The position numbers and the translations under genes are program-made. This document shows, piece after piece, positions 300 through 34,061 of a DNA stretch of 34,196 nucleotides. Source of the stretch: a virus; the IMG/VR virus record IMGVR_UViG_3300028883_000098, positions 1 to 34,196 of that record; one strand, written 5' to 3'. The notes beneath the pieces were generated by a model. That model was not told the DNA's origin and did not search any database. It saw only the letters and a list, made by a program, of their open reading frames with translations. The first letter of the stretch is position 1. Each line of letters opens with the position of its first letter.

Positions 300-1061
300 C
301 TAAGCCGAAAACTTTTCGACGATTCTATCTCGATCTTTCCATGGGAAGGTGTCTATCTCGTACTCTTCGAACGCATTTATCACAGATGCTGAGATATCGC
401 TACGGCTGTCATTCAGGAATACGAAAAGTCTCGAATCATCATCACGTTGGACATGGATATCAGTCCATTCGAATAACGTAAGCTGAACAGCATTTTTATT
501 CGGATTGTTCACGGCCTGAATGATTGTTTCGGGAGAATCGTTCGTCTTTGGAATGAGGATGTCAAACTTATGCGACAAACCTGACTTACCTTGCAGCTGA
601 ATATCACGACTTCCCCATATGCGCTTGCTTTGAAGGTATGAGAATACATTGTCTGAAAACACACCAGGTACACGTGAACCTGACATAGCCATCAGATCGC
701 TGACAGATAACATAGCCTGAATGAGAGAGTGTTTTTTCTGAGGGAAGGTAGACATGCCAGCTTTGACTACAAGTTCATCACCATCAACTCCAATGCCGAA
801 TCGGTTCACTATGCGGTTAAGAATAAGTCTTCTTTTCGAATTTCTCAGGTCAACACCGGAGGCTCTTAGATCACCAATAGTCCACCCATCATCACTGAGT
901 AAAAGAGAGTTCCCGTCCTGCTGGACGTATATCTGAATCATATCATTGTGGCTGTCGACGAAAGGAGTTGTAATCTCAGTGTATCCATTCTTATCACTGA
1001 AACTGACACCTTCGCGAAACCATTTTATGTATGATTCAATGAAGTCGTTTCCTGTAATCAT
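300..1061 (-). CDS. DUF1828/DUF1829 domain protein
   Basis: This 253-residue protein looks like the two-domain family with DUF1828 at the N-terminal side (about residues 20-110, with the family-typical LLLSDDGWT stretch) and DUF1829 at the C-terminal side (about 150-250). No signal peptide or membrane segment is visible. Its molecular function is not established to my knowledge. It overlaps the end of the DUF6978 gene by 4 bp, and GGAGGAGA lies 8-10 bases before the ATG, so the two are one translation-coupled operon. The operon points away from the lytic genes, next to the repressor and attachment site, where phages carry accessory genes expressed during lysogeny. A role in phage defence or toxin-antitoxin function is inference only. 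Confidence 0.75.
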   Translation of the reverse strand: MITGNDFIESYIKWFREGVSFSDKNGYTEITTPFVDSHNDMIQIYVQQDGNSLLLSDDGWTIGDLRASGVDLRNSKRRLILNRIVNRFGIGVDGDELVVKAGMSTFPQKKHSLIQAMLSVSDLMAMSGSRVPGVFSDNVFSYLQSKRIWGSRDIQLQGKSGLSHKFDILIPKTNDSPETIIQAVNNPNKNAVQLTLFEWTDIHVQRDDDSRLFVFLNDSRSDISASVINAFEEYEIDTFPWKDRDRIVEKFSA

Positions 1062-3008: not shown

Positions 3009-3056
3009 ATGCCGATAACCATAAAGAGGTTCCCGCACCTCGGCACTGAAACGCGG

Positions 3057-3118
3057 AAGCTGGCTGGTGCAGGAGGGGCTCATATCCCTTCCGTCCCGTT
3101 CGAATCGGGAGACAGCTT
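3057..3118 (+). other. tRNA-like fold with CAU in a 7-base loop
   Basis: AAGCTG (3057-3062) pairs with CAGCTT (3113-3118) and closes a multi-branch fold. Inside, GGAGGGG/CCCTTCC (3072-3078 and 3086-3092) presents a 7-base loop, CTCATAT, with CAU where a Met anticodon would be. TCCCG/CGGGA (3094-3098 and 3106-3110) presents TTCGAAT, which fits the T-loop consensus. The D-arm is nearly absent (GC/GC around a 4-base loop), the variable loop is too short, and no CCA or proper discriminator follows. It is not a normal tRNA. It may be a decayed or mimic tRNA, or a chance resemblance. Confidence 0.3.
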
Positions 3119-3261
3119 GAACACTCGGCCCGCATGGGTGAGTGAACAAACATTCAGGAGGTCTATTTTCCTTTTCACTGGAAGTGAGTTCAGAATACAT
3201 AGTTTCGCAGACCAGAAGGTACGAGCGCATGGCCCCGGCGTCCTGCACAGCAGGGGCAAAT

Positions 3262-3295
3262 AAAAAACCACCGAATCCCGCTAAAGCTTCGGTGG
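3262..3295 (-). terminator. Intrinsic terminator on the minus strand
   Basis: Read on the minus strand, CCACCGAA, a 12-base loop and TTCGGTGG form an 8-bp stem followed directly by six T's and then ATTT. That is a textbook Rho-independent terminator. No minus-strand gene lies upstream of it, so it would end a short antisense RNA starting near 3380-3450, or stop leftward readthrough toward the repressor. Read on the plus strand it lacks a T-run, so it should not block early transcription. Confidence 0.65.
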
Positions 3296-3385
3296 CAGGT
3301 TGGTTCGATCATCAGATCGAAATGACACAAGCAGAATACACCCTATTCTGCACGATGACAACCGCTAAGCGGTTAGGAGTCACTT

Positions 3386-3769
3386 ATGAATAAGTCAGAT
3401 GAAATGGTGAAAAGCCTCGTGGCCAGCACGGCATCACAGGCAGTCGGCATCTATCAGCAGCTGAAGAGAGAGCATGAGCTTGAGATCATGCAGTACCAGG
3501 CAGGAGTAAGGTCATTTAATTCTCGCGTGAACGAGCTCAAGAAAGAGAGGGAGAAGCTCCTGAAGGAGCTCGAAGCTGATCGGAACGAATTGCAAAAACT
3601 CCGAGAAGATTACGCCGTCCTTGAGAAGGAAAGCGAACAGCACCGGCGTTGGTGGCTCAAAGCTACCGAAGATCGCAATGCCGCCCAGAAGGAACTCAAG
3701 GATCTCAAGGACCAGCATGCCTCAGAGTCGGATGATCTTGAGGAAGAGGTGAAGGAGGCGCTGGCATGA
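3386..3769 (+). CDS. Coiled-coil protein of unknown function
   Basis: This 127-residue protein is almost wholly alpha-helical. Residues about 25-125 are rich in E, K, L and R in heptad-like spacing, indicating a coiled coil. There are no membrane segments or Cys clusters. TAGGAG stands six bases before the ATG, directly after the AACCGCT/AGCGGTT hairpin, so that hairpin could affect ribosome access. The stop codon overlaps the start of the exonuclease gene (ATGA). Small coiled-coil proteins often precede recombination genes in phage early operons, but no function can be assigned. Confidence 0.75.
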   Translation: MNKSDEMVKSLVASTASQAVGIYQQLKREHELEIMQYQAGVRSFNSRVNELKKEREKLLKELEADRNELQKLREDYAVLEKESEQHRRWWLKATEDRNAAQKELKDLKDQHASESDDLEEEVKEALA

Positions 3770-4476
3770 GTGAGCAGTTCACAAGAACGAAATTCCCGGA
3801 CCGGGCCTCATGGCTCGCCGGGAGGGGAGAAGGCCTCGGCGCATCGGACGCTGCGGCCTTCATGCAGCTTTCCCCATGGACAAGTATCACAAAGCTCTGG
3901 CAGGAGAAGACGGGCCAGATCGAGCGAGAGGACATATCAGGCAAGCCGGGTGTCCAGCGTGGCATCGATGAGGAGCCGATCATCAGGAATCAATTCATCG
4001 AAGATCACCCCGAGTTCGAAGTCTACCACCACCCCTACGAGATCCTCGCACTCAAGCGCAAGCCGTTCATCAGAGCTTCCCTCGACGGGGAGCTCATAGT
4101 CGTTAAAGAGAACCACTATGGACTTCCTGTAGGCTCTCGCGGTGTCCTGCAGATCAAAACCGGATCCTATTCGGCCAAACGGTATCTGGACAAGTGGACA
4201 GGGAGAGAGATGCTGGATTTCTACTTCGCTCAGGAATGCCAGGAACTCCTCGTGACCGGGTGGGACTTCGCATGGGTTCAGGCGAAGCTGTTCCGCATCG
4301 ACCGTCGGTATGCCACGGGAAGAACCAACGGATACCTCCCGGATCAGTACGAAACATATTTCCTGATCAAGGCCGGGAATCCTGTCGTGCAGGAGTCTAT
4401 TCAGGCTGTAGAAGAAGCAGCAACAACCTTCTGGGATGATGTACAGAACATGCACTCCCCGGACGTAGCCGTATAA
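3766..4476 (+). CDS. YqaJ/lambda-exonuclease-family recombination nuclease
   Basis: The 236-residue protein has the YqaJ layout: GASD at 25-28, the RGIDEEP segment at 65-71, ASLDGE with Asp107, QIK at 129-131, and YFAQECQELLVTG at 153-165. The family resects double-stranded DNA 5' to 3' so that a RecT-type protein can anneal the strands. The usual Glu of the final ExK motif is Gln here (Q129-I-K131). QxK versions exist in active PD-(D/E)XK enzymes such as TnsA, so activity is possible but worth testing. AAGGAGG precedes the ATG by seven bases. The DUF1351 and RecT genes follow directly. Confidence 0.88.
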   Translation: MSEQFTRTKFPDRASWLAGRGEGLGASDAAAFMQLSPWTSITKLWQEKTGQIEREDISGKPGVQRGIDEEPIIRNQFIEDHPEFEVYHHPYEILALKRKPFIRASLDGELIVVKENHYGLPVGSRGVLQIKTGSYSAKRYLDKWTGREMLDFYFAQECQELLVTGWDFAWVQAKLFRIDRRYATGRTNGYLPDQYETYFLIKAGNPVVQESIQAVEEAATTFWDDVQNMHSPDVAV

Positions 4477-6505: not shown

Positions 6506-7024
6506 GTGGTAGATGTCAACAAAGTAATCATCAAGGATGACACCCTTGTCGTCGATTTCAAAGACGAGAAAGGCTCATTCAAAATGAGCGTAAACACCAC
6601 CGGGGAGAACGAGCCCTCCCCGGACCTCTTCGTATCTATCCGAAAAATGATCGATATCTTCGCATACCGGATGGATCTCGAAGCGAAACGGGACAGCCTG
6701 ACTGTGCTGGGCCTCGAATCCGGGCGCGATCAGAGGGGGTTATGGTTTCGCATCCATGGATCCTATACCGCGCATACTCTTGAGCACAAGGTTGCTACCG
6801 GAAAGCTCAGGGAGATCATCTATTACCCCGGGGACTATGACGAGCAAGGAAATCTCATCGACATATCCAGTCCGGAACGGGAAGAGGAGCTCGTGAGTGA
6901 GTATCCATCTCTTCTGACCGAAGATGAGCATGGGATCCTGATCGACTGTCTGGCCGAGGCTCAGGCATTCGTCGGTGGAAAGAGGCTGCAGAAGCAGTTT
7001 GAGTTCGAGGAGGATGCACCGTGA
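6506..7024 (+). CDS. Hypothetical early protein
   Basis: This 172-residue protein is not recognised. The start is GTG, about four bases after GAGGTG. The N-terminal 40 residues look beta-rich (VIIKDDTLVVDF). A helix at about 42-62 and an acidic C-terminal half follow, ending in FEFEEDAP. It has no Cys cluster, no membrane segment and no known catalytic motif. It lies between recT and a run of tiny genes, and its stop overlaps the next GTG start. A role in DNA metabolism is possible from position only. Confidence 0.7.
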   Translation: MVDVNKVIIKDDTLVVDFKDEKGSFKMSVNTTGENEPSPDLFVSIRKMIDIFAYRMDLEAKRDSLTVLGLESGRDQRGLWFRIHGSYTAHTLEHKVATGKLREIIYYPGDYDEQGNLIDISSPEREEELVSEYPSLLTEDEHGILIDCLAEAQAFVGGKRLQKQFEFEEDAP

Positions 7025-32360: not shown

Positions 32361-32562
32361 GCCGCCTCAGTACATCCTACCGACCCTTGATGCGTTCGAG
32401 CCACCGAGGATCCCGCCTGATCTGATCGCAGAGCCTCAGACCGATGCTGACATTCTTCACAACGGCATTCAGTATGAATTTGGTATGTACGCATGGCAGG
32501 ATGCATACGATGCGCTGAAGAAGTATCTTGCAGAGATCCGGAAGATCTTCGCAGGAGAATAA
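32269..32562 (+). CDS. Outer-membrane spanin lipoprotein (Rz1-like)
   Basis: A 97-residue protein with a lipoprotein signal peptide (LVTTGCS, Cys25) and a proline-rich mature N-terminus (PPQYILPTLDAFEPPRIPP, about 32-50), as in Rz1-type o-spanins, then a short helical end. GGAGG precedes the ATG. The start lies 92 bp inside the i-spanin gene in a different frame. Together the two fuse inner and outer membranes at the last step of lysis, which implies a two-membrane host. Confidence 0.85.
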   Translation: MNYRRNSRSWLLLSMIALTLVTTGCSTTATEPPQYILPTLDAFEPPRIPPDLIAEPQTDADILHNGIQYEFGMYAWQDAYDALKKYLAEIRKIFAGE

Positions 32563-32565
32563 GAC

Positions 32566-32590
32566 CCACCCCTCAGGTGTGGAGGGGTGG
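32566..32590 (+). terminator. Terminator-like hairpin ending the late operon
   Basis: CCACCCCTC, a 7-base loop and GAGGGGTGG form a perfect 9-bp stem three bases after the o-spanin stop. The bases after it (AATAATTCG) are AT-rich but not a T-run on the plus strand. It probably ends or protects the late transcript and separates it from the convergent integrase gene. Confidence 0.7.
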
Positions 32591-32797
32591 AATAATTCGA
32601 ACGCGAATTGACAAGGCACATCAGAATAATTATTCATTGATTTTACAAAGTTATCGTCAAGTAAATCACAGTTTCATGCAGATCTGTAAAGTTCACTAAA
32701 CCTACAAAATCAAAATGGAATCTTTAGTGCGGGTGCAATTCCCTGGGAAATGCTCACAGCAAAATACATCTTTCACGATATTCCTGCATGAAAACCT
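32591..32797. other. Intergenic space between lysis and integrase genes
   Basis: No gene is supported here. It contains an inverted repeat AATTCG/CGAATT (32594-32609), a TTGACA box (32608-32613) with only a weak -10 match (TATTCA at 32631) on the plus strand, and a hairpin GCA-TTCCC/GGGAA-TGC (32735-32753) just past the integrase stop that may end the integrase message. If the TTGACA promoter is real, it would transcribe into the integrase gene in antisense. Confidence 0.5.
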
Positions 32798-33946
32798 TTA
32801 GTCTCTCACATCCTCAAGGATCTCTCTCACCGGCTGAAGCTGCTTAAGCACGTGCTCCGGGGTTCGGTGGTCATACTCCGGGTGAAACGTCGTGTGAGCC
32901 ATAAGCTCCAGGAGAACCTTGTTTTCAACCCGCCCGGCCAAAGTGGTTTCAAAGGCATGCCGGAAGCTATACTGAGTTCTTCCGTCAAGATCCACATGCG
33001 CACGTCTCGCAGCTCCCTTGAGATGCTTGTTCGCGATGTCCGGAGAAATCAGCCTGGAACCGACCATGAAGAGAAACTGATTGTCTGACATATCTGCAGA
33101 TAGATCATTGAGGATCCTGCACGTTTGATCTGTGAGGATCCCTGTCTTGTACTTCTGACCGCTCTTCGATGTCTTGATAGAATCCTTGATCTGCCTTGTC
33201 CGAAAGCTCACAGACTGCTCAGTGTAGATTCCGTGAAGATCCGGGAAGTAGTTCCGCTTCTGGATGCCAGCAACTTCCCCCGGCCGGAACCCGGTGTCCC
33301 GGAGTATGAGGAAATAACCGGCCCACATCTTAGACAGCCAGATCCGCATAAGCTCGTCGTAATCAGGCGGGAAGAGTAGGGCAAGCTCACCTTTCGTGAT
33401 CTCACGCCTCGGCTTGTTCCTGGCATTGATCATCCTGACATTGTCGGCCGGGTTGATTTCTATGTGCCCCTGCCTCTTCGCCTCGTGCATGATCATCCGG
33501 AAACAGATAAGCACCTTGTTCTTCGAATCATCTGATAGAGGTGGCCTCTTCCCTTTCGTGCTCCTGAGAGACAGGATCCAGTCTTCGATGGCGACATCGG
33601 TGATAGAGTCGATGAGGTGAGATCCGAACTGGGGAATGATGTGGTTTTCGACCCTCCCCTGGTGCTGATCCCAGTACGCCTCAGAGTACCCCTGATGTCT
33701 GGCTTCTGATCTTCGTATCACTCCGTAAGGATCCTTCTCAGTGAAGATCTCCTTCGCGAAGGCGCTCATCGTCGGGATCCTAGTATCGTTCAGCAGTCCA
33801 CCCCGGCGAAGCTCATCCTCGGCAAACCTGACAGCTCCGGGCATGTCAGCAGATCTTGTACTGAACCATCTCCCGGGGATGTGCCGGAACGTTACATAAT
33901 AAACGCCCTTGTCTTTCTTGTAAGTGAATCGGTACGGGTTTTTCAT
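32798..33946 (-). CDS. int: Tyrosine integrase
   Basis: A 382-residue tyrosine recombinase. The N-terminal arm-binding part is about 1-70, the SAM-like core-binding domain about 85-170 and the catalytic domain about 185-375. Catalytic residues are Arg221 (GFRPGEV), Lys near 260-267, Arg329 in YSFRH, His351 (LMAH) and the nucleophile Tyr358 (PEYDHR). The usual first His of HxxR is Tyr326, a known variant. It joins the phage attachment site to the tRNA-Asn 3' end 120 bp away. Its promoter places the -10 box six bases before the ATG. Confidence 0.94.
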   Translation of the reverse strand: MKNPYRFTYKKDKGVYYVTFRHIPGRWFSTRSADMPGAVRFAEDELRRGGLLNDTRIPTMSAFAKEIFTEKDPYGVIRRSEARHQGYSEAYWDQHQGRVENHIIPQFGSHLIDSITDVAIEDWILSLRSTKGKRPPLSDDSKNKVLICFRMIMHEAKRQGHIEINPADNVRMINARNKPRREITKGELALLFPPDYDELMRIWLSKMWAGYFLILRDTGFRPGEVAGIQKRNYFPDLHGIYTEQSVSFRTRQIKDSIKTSKSGQKYKTGILTDQTCRILNDLSADMSDNQFLFMVGSRLISPDIANKHLKGAARRAHVDLDGRTQYSFRHAFETTLAGRVENKVLLELMAHTTFHPEYDHRTPEHVLKQLQPVREILEDVRD

Positions 33947-34017: not shown

Positions 34018-34061
34018 ATAAAAAAGAGGCAACTACTTTACATTAAAGTAATTACCTCTTG
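34018..34061 (-). terminator. Terminator downstream of tRNA-Asn, supplied by the phage
   Basis: AAGAGG (34024-34029) and CCTCTT (34055-34060) with TACTTTA/TAAAGTA inside make a long stem with small mismatches and a 3-base loop. On the minus strand it ends in CCTCTT followed by more T's (34018-34024), an intrinsic terminator for the tRNA transcript. It lies on the phage side of the attachment site and also shields the integrase gene from tRNA readthrough. Confidence 0.75.

Follow-up and report, generated by a model that had tools for sequence, protein, structure and literature searches.

Most of what is known about antisense RNAs of phage early operons (OOP, sar), and about switches that combine a pseudoknot with an antisense RNA (IncI plasmids), comes from enterobacteria and the plasmids they carry. 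In phage lambda, OOP is a leftward RNA that starts at pO and ends at tO, between cII and O; 52 of its bases overlap cII, and the decay of cII mRNA involves RNase III (PMC5869508). Phage P22 has oop and sar RNAs of the same kind (PMC13397905). In plasmid ColIb-P9 the translation of repZ depends on a pseudoknot, which is blocked by binding of the antisense RNA (PMC8383071), and this control hinges on a kissing interaction of RNAI with stem-loop I (PMC10724649). All descriptions of type I toxin-antitoxin systems come from Proteobacteria, Firmicutes and Tenericutes, with Cyanobacteria as a recent addition (PMC12390103).

Here we analyse a hairpin array in the early operon of a temperate phage. The window, i.e. 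the whole stretch of DNA that was analysed, is an IMG/VR virus record of 34,196 bases. We suggest, with a probability of about 0.58, that the array is a small minus-strand antisense RNA gene that lies in the leader of the first gene of the recombination operon and controls its translation.

The early operon and its hairpin-rich gap

The window has the gene order of a temperate siphophage (Table 1). Terminase, head and tail genes are also present; the large terminase is backed by search, and the names of the head, tail and integrase genes were given from sequence and gene order. A gene for a DUF1828/DUF1829 protein (300-1061, minus strand) lies near the repressor at the left end. The excisionase-like gene is kept in relatives at 39-46%. 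The coiled-coil protein is charged, and since the stop codon of its gene overlaps the start of yqaJ (ATGA), translation of the two genes is probably coupled. Early regions like that of the window were found in the Spirochaetia genomes L018 and L019, as well as in additional genomes of this class, which makes a spirochaete the likely host of the phage.

The gap between the excisionase-like and the coiled-coil gene (3009-3385) was described in the sequence-only reading as the only sizeable one of the early operon and as filled by about nine hairpins. The former is not established, as the segment 9631-10132 wholly contains no plus-strand ORF of at least 100 aa. As to the hairpins, four are present as exact inverted repeats between 3268 and 3374, i.e. 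in the last third of the gap. The five shorter ones are not borne out: the preceding 254 nt (3009-3262) fold with a z of only -1.0, and 30 of 200 shuffles are as good. Hairpin 4 had been drawn as 7 bp with a 1-nt loop (3360-3366/3368-3374), which is foldable only as 6 bp with a 3-nt loop. The claim that the density of hairpins is far above that of ordinary spacer DNA holds for the four-hairpin part: the RNA of 3260-3388 folds at -43.5 kcal/mol as compared to -24.8 +/- 3.2 for shuffled sequences (z = -5.9; 0/200 shuffles).

The segment 3246-3355 has the second-lowest fold z among the 620 segments tiling the plus strand. The lowest (-4.7) belongs to 32506-32615, beyond the integrase gene and between convergent genes, and the third-lowest (-4.25) to 6546-6655, at the start of the gene 6506-7024. 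In this last region a terminator-like hairpin, CCGGGGAGGGCTCGTTCTCCCCGG, is seen on the minus strand.

Two ORFs cross the gap (3009-3263 and 3142-3393). Neither has a family match in protein family searches, and their codon scores are -0.08 and -0.04 as compared to 0.14-0.49 in 14 clear phage genes; one other small ORF that was treated as a gene scores even below them. A protein-coding reading of the gap was dropped. The gap also gave no gathering-score match in Rfam 15, in agreement with the earlier remark that the array resembles no nameable RNA family.

A truncated tRNA-like cloverleaf lies further upstream in the gap. It has a 7-bp arm with the 7-nt loop CTCATAT (CAT) and the T arm TCCCG-TTCGAAT-CGGGA; the only other perfect T-arm motif of the window is that of tRNA-Asn. 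The cloverleaf is the minimum-energy fold of its segment, at a z of only -1.6. It is not recognised by ARAGORN or Rfam, and the sole ARAGORN model at the 80% threshold is a poor tRNA-Ser that extends over a longer segment. Related phages have comparable pieces. In L003 this gap holds a complete tRNA-Met(CAT), and tRNA genes (Leu, Gln, Ser) occur in L037, L046 (gap downstream of the ribbon-type gene) and L065 (rc ~830-1200), the early-operon gaps of which also contain odd, apparently interrupted or minimal tRNA-like pieces.

Table 1. Coordinates of the genes and predicted features of the window
Feature	Position	Strand	Remarks
Repressor-like gene	2038-2382	minus	
Excisionase/HTH regulator-like gene, 115 aa	2661-3008	plus	phrog_66; RYLLPRFG motif; upstream of the gap
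Truncated tRNA-like cloverleaf	3057-3118	plus	acceptor stem, 2-bp D arm, perfect T arm; outside the antisense unit
Predicted intrinsic terminator, GCCACCGAAGCTTTAGCGGGATTCGGTGGT + TTTTTATTT	3262-3296	minus	hairpin 1 (3268-3295) with TTTTTT tail
Predicted antisense RNA, ~66 nt	3262-3326	minus	hairpin 2, then terminator hairpin 1 and U-run
Hairpin 1, inverted repeat	3268-3275/3288-3295		8 bp, exact
Hairpin 2, TTCGATC-ATCA-GATCGAA	3304-3310/3315-3321		7 bp, exact; within the sense leader and the predicted antisense RNA
Hairpin 3, GCAGAATA-CACCC-TATTCTGC	3331-3338/3344-3351		8 bp, exact; overlaps the -10 and spacer of the minus promoter
Predicted sigma70-like promoter, TTGTCA-17-TATTCT	3361-3333	minus	-35 at 3356-3361, -10 at 3333-3338; 9/12 consensus positions
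Hairpin 4, AACCGC-TAA-GCGGTT	3360-3374	plus	directly before the Shine-Dalgarno AGGAG (3375-3379)
Coiled-coil gene, 127 aa	3386-3769	plus	first gene downstream of the gap; weak coiled-coil match only
YqaJ-type exonuclease gene	3766-4476	plus	followed by the DUF1351 and RecT genes
Early operon with YqaJ exonuclease, DUF1351 and RecT genes		plus	family matches
Integrase gene	32798-33946	minus	adjoins tRNA-Asn

A predicted minus-strand RNA gene in the gap

The strongest feature of the array is found on the strand opposite to the operon. The hairpin at 3267-3296 reaches a score of 18.9 as a minus-strand intrinsic terminator, a value attained by none of 100 shuffles. The same scan detected no plus-strand terminator in the gap region, and a plus-strand terminator reading was dropped for this reason. 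The four strongest terminators of the 34-kb window, of which this one is the second, all belong to the minus strand. The other three are situated after the 300-2382 cluster (129-155), after the integrase gene (32565-32591) and after tRNA-Asn (34026-34058). As each of these follows a known minus-strand gene or gene cluster, the terminator at hairpin 1 asks for a minus-strand gene to its right.

A candidate promoter for such a gene is present. It is the best minus-strand promoter of the region and is weak when taken alone, as 9% of shuffled regions contain one as good. When both strands of the 34 kb were scanned for a promoter followed by a terminator within 100 nt, with cut-offs that were set with knowledge of the site, a single site was returned, 3361-3262, and none of 2000 region shuffles contained one. 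In other words, by its sequence the array has a promoter and an intrinsic terminator of its own opposite to an early operon, as RNAs of the OOP/sar kind do. With the +1 placed near G3326 from the position of the -10, the predicted RNA of ~66 nt folds as hairpin 2 plus the terminator (z ~ -3.6). The sequence-only reading had placed a structured RNA in the early transcript, but the opposite strand is the more probable one. With its minus-strand terminator and promoter, the array looks like an antisense RNA gene and not like one structured RNA of 370 nt.

We infer that the RNA is transcribed, that it pairs with the leader and in which direction it acts. Transcription from the promoter at 3361-3333 would yield an RNA that carries hairpin 2, ends at hairpin 1 and the T-run, and could base-pair as an antisense strand to the coiled-coil/yqaJ/recT mRNA within its leader. 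Such a duplex would alter the fold of the leader and would offer a target to RNase III. The RNA is predicted to end ~50 nt short of the Shine-Dalgarno sequence, so its effect on translation would have to be indirect. In this manner the antisense RNA may set the translation of the coiled-coil gene and, via coupling, also that of the recombination genes; one possible role would be to silence leaky early transcripts in the lysogen. The earlier suggestion of a structured RNA, or of a leader controlling the coiled-coil and recombination genes, stands with respect to the leader position, and it is supported by a covarying structure at the same place in relatives.

Related leaders in spirochaete prophages

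Searches for homologues of the array itself yielded none. A nucleotide search of phage records gave no match, IMG/VR protein searches with the coiled-coil and excisionase-like genes gave no relative or distant ones without a gap, and a scan of IMG/VR for the exact pattern of hairpin 2 gave none. Short isolated DNA matches to the query in the spirochaete genomes L048, L049 and L051-L053 were taken as chance. Relatives were reached via the RecT and YqaJ anchors. Even the nearest ones are only distantly related, with identities of no more than 64% in RecT and ~47% in YqaJ, and the gaps they carry are unlike that of the window.

The relatives are prophages with the order repressor, ribbon-type gene, excisionase-like or other HTH gene, gap, small gene, yqaJ, DUF1351. 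Seven prophages of this order have a well-aligning leader in the gap, which consists of a small stem-loop, a GC-rich hairpin after an A-run, and an H-type pseudoknot. P1 of the pseudoknot has 4-6 bp (GAGGG/CCCTC and variants), the first loop is 1 nt in most, and P2 has 7 bp: the 7-nt loop strand GCUAUAC pairs with GUAUAGC directly before the Shine-Dalgarno AAAGGAG. In the MAFFT alignment of the leader both sides have changed in 9 of 26 pairs, and 92% of cells are paired as compared to 31-44% when slid. A covariance model, R1, found more members in other spirochaete genomes. Among the 14 R1 members both-sided changes are seen in 13 of 21 pairs, and 94% are paired as compared to 25-40% when slid, in an alignment that was fitted to the covariance model and leans towards it. 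Variants of P2 are CCAUGC/GCAUGG (L087), GCUAUC/GAUAGC (L089) and GUUACAC/GUGUAGC (L040 and L101), and the P1 strand changes along with its partner in several ways. Two further R1 matches, L095 and L096, were discarded as false, as they have no conserved Shine-Dalgarno context and hardly any P1.

The R1 elements also have a minus-strand side. The GC-rich hairpin together with the A-run is a predicted minus-strand intrinsic terminator in 12 of 14 members by the automatic scan (0/100 shuffles each); in the remaining two, L040 and L087, it was recognised on visual inspection, as the loop is longer or the T-run shifted. A minus-strand promoter is found in 14/14 loci, as the best or second-best one, and its extended -10 (TGCTATACT) lies in the 3' strand of P2. 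The -35 TTG is at a spacing of 17 bp (9 loci) or 18 bp (5 loci), and at 30 other spacings from 8 to 39 a TTG occurs twice in total. The promoter lies in two codon phases of the downstream gene and at four distances from the start codon, so the protein sequence does not account for it. Outside the R1 family, L063 has a strong minus-strand terminator hairpin in the same place by the automatic scan, and L064 one recognised by eye, TTTTCTTTTT after GGCAGGCGG...CCGCCTGCC. The antisense RNA predicted for the relatives is ~75-100 nt long and contains the complement of the P1 hairpin, with a loop complementary to the one whose partner is the Shine-Dalgarno-proximal strand. In the relatives, then, the loop of a short hairpin probably pairs with the strand just before the Shine-Dalgarno sequence, and the antisense RNA probably covers this loop.

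The genes downstream of the element (L084-L101) encode proteins of 54-65 aa that begin with a hydrophobic stretch at the N terminus and have, at the C terminus, a motif around W-I-(I/T)...E-(F/Y)-(I/V); those searched have no significant Pfam or PHROGs match. The coiled-coil gene of the window differs from these small membrane-like proteins. In members beside yqaJ the stop of the small gene overlaps the start of yqaJ (e.g. AATGGCTGA), so that control of the small gene could pass to the recombination cassette. Members that do not adjoin yqaJ include L087 and L090-L094. The element is missing from several phages that have related genes (L068, L105, L035, L019), which indicates that the module is optional. 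The only Rfam matches of the relatives were tRNAs, at two loci that do not belong to the R1 family.

A second conserved structured leader was seen at ~1700-1793 of L038 and in the same gap of L041, L042, L043, L045, L034 and L058, between the ribbon-type gene and the one after it, which is often excisionase-like. It reads GGGAC...GAGGctGGCCacCTC tGTCCC gaaaCGGCC, then Shine-Dalgarno, and resembles another pseudoknot (loop GGCC with a downstream GGCC). It is absent from the window, where the ribbon-type and the next gene overlap.

The window is best described as working like the relatives, judged by its position, between the HTH/excisionase-like gene and the gene preceding yqaJ, and by the same minus-strand terminator on the upstream side, with a sequence of its own. 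We do not count it as an R1 member, because the covariance models R1 and R2 of the relatives' element reach only 5.3-5.4 bits in the window gap, which is chance level (accepted members score 23-140), and because the pseudoknot cannot be recognised in it. The sole complementarity between a loop and the region of the Shine-Dalgarno sequence, CCGCT (3278-3282) with AGCGG (3368-3372), is 5 nt long and arises in 8% of shuffles. The array is a presumed counterpart of the relatives' element.

Alternative readings and comparison with known systems

The hairpins could also act in the sense strand only, i.e. hairpins 1-4 could be mRNA structures for stability, processing or translation, such as RNase III sites or a stable hairpin placed immediately before the Shine-Dalgarno sequence, and no minus-strand transcript would be made. 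The strong plus-strand folding of the array and the position of hairpin 4, which abuts the Shine-Dalgarno sequence, are consistent with this. Moreover, in the relatives G-U pairs outnumber A-C cells by 6 to 2 on the plus strand, so the plus-strand fold is probably under selection as well. A sense-only leader nevertheless leaves unexplained the run of six A directly 5' of hairpin 1, i.e. the T-run of the minus strand, which recurs in the relatives, and also their conserved minus promoter at 17-18 bp. We consider it unlikely.

It is quite improbable that the gap is just a hotspot in which tRNA fragments and stray hairpins pile up without function. The corresponding gap of related phages does hold tRNAs or tRNA-like pieces, hairpins or nothing, the window has its truncated cloverleaf, and the array has no close homologue with which conservation could be compared; four mismatch-free stems are, however, not expected from decay, and the promoter-terminator layout is ordered.

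Least probable is a cluster of DNA operators, in which palindromes of 15-21 bp would bind dimeric regulators (the repressor, the excisionase-like protein) at an internal early promoter: TTCGATC-N4-GATCGAA and GCAGAATA-N5-TATTCTGC are operator-like and an HTH gene adjoins, but palindrome scans of the window, after which this candidate was dropped, showed that the palindromes are unlike each other and occur as single exact copies, none being repeated near the repressor or the early promoter, that other matches carry 2-3 mismatches and are scattered along the window, and the arm distance in the relatives varies widely (14 to 27 nt for the P1-to-second-arm loop alone), which fits RNA pairing and not a dimeric protein.

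A hairpin-rich gap that might otherwise be passed over as "structured spacer" would find a concrete explanation in the antisense RNA gene. We tentatively go one step further, to a proposal we hold at somewhat less than even odds: temperate phages of Spirochaetota may share an undescribed module in which the -10 of the antisense RNA lies inside the pseudoknot stem that sets the ribosome binding site of an early gene, and the window may have kept the antisense gene and replaced the pseudoknot, in a fast-evolving element. If so, one sequence would encode both an mRNA switch and its antisense inhibitor, often coupled to a recombination cassette. No report of such an element in the spirochaete phylum was found in the literature searched, and the covarying element of the spirochaete prophages would constitute a new RNA family.

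Compared to the described systems, the R1 relatives are like type I toxin-antitoxin pairs in that a 54-65-aa protein with a hydrophobic N terminus is opposed by a predicted antisense RNA that has a promoter and a terminator of its own. The likeness does not extend to L035 and L017, which keep a similar small protein without the antisense element, nor to the window, where the facing gene encodes a charged coiled coil of 127 aa and not a hydrophobic protein of less than ~60 aa.

The R1 relatives are also like IncIalpha ColIb-P9 (and IncB and IncL/M), in that a loop of the leader pairs just upstream of the Shine-Dalgarno sequence and the predicted antisense RNA covers this loop. By analogy, the pseudoknot of the relatives may activate translation. 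The covarying loop-to-Shine-Dalgarno pairing of this group is found in the R1 relatives and not in the window. The plasmid systems differ in that they serve a replication gene and not the early operon of a spirochaete phage, and the R1 relatives differ in turn in that the -10 of their antisense RNA lies inside the 3' strand of the pseudoknot.

Among phages, lambda OOP comes closest in layout. Like the predicted RNA of the window, it is a short antisense RNA against an early operon, situated between a regulatory HTH gene (cII in lambda) and the next gene (in lambda O, the first replication gene), with its own promoter and a terminator hairpin. The likeness is one of layout, between phages whose hosts probably belong to different phyla. 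The two differ in position: OOP reaches into the 3' end of the upstream gene, and the RNA predicted here stays within the gap, opposite the leader of the next gene.
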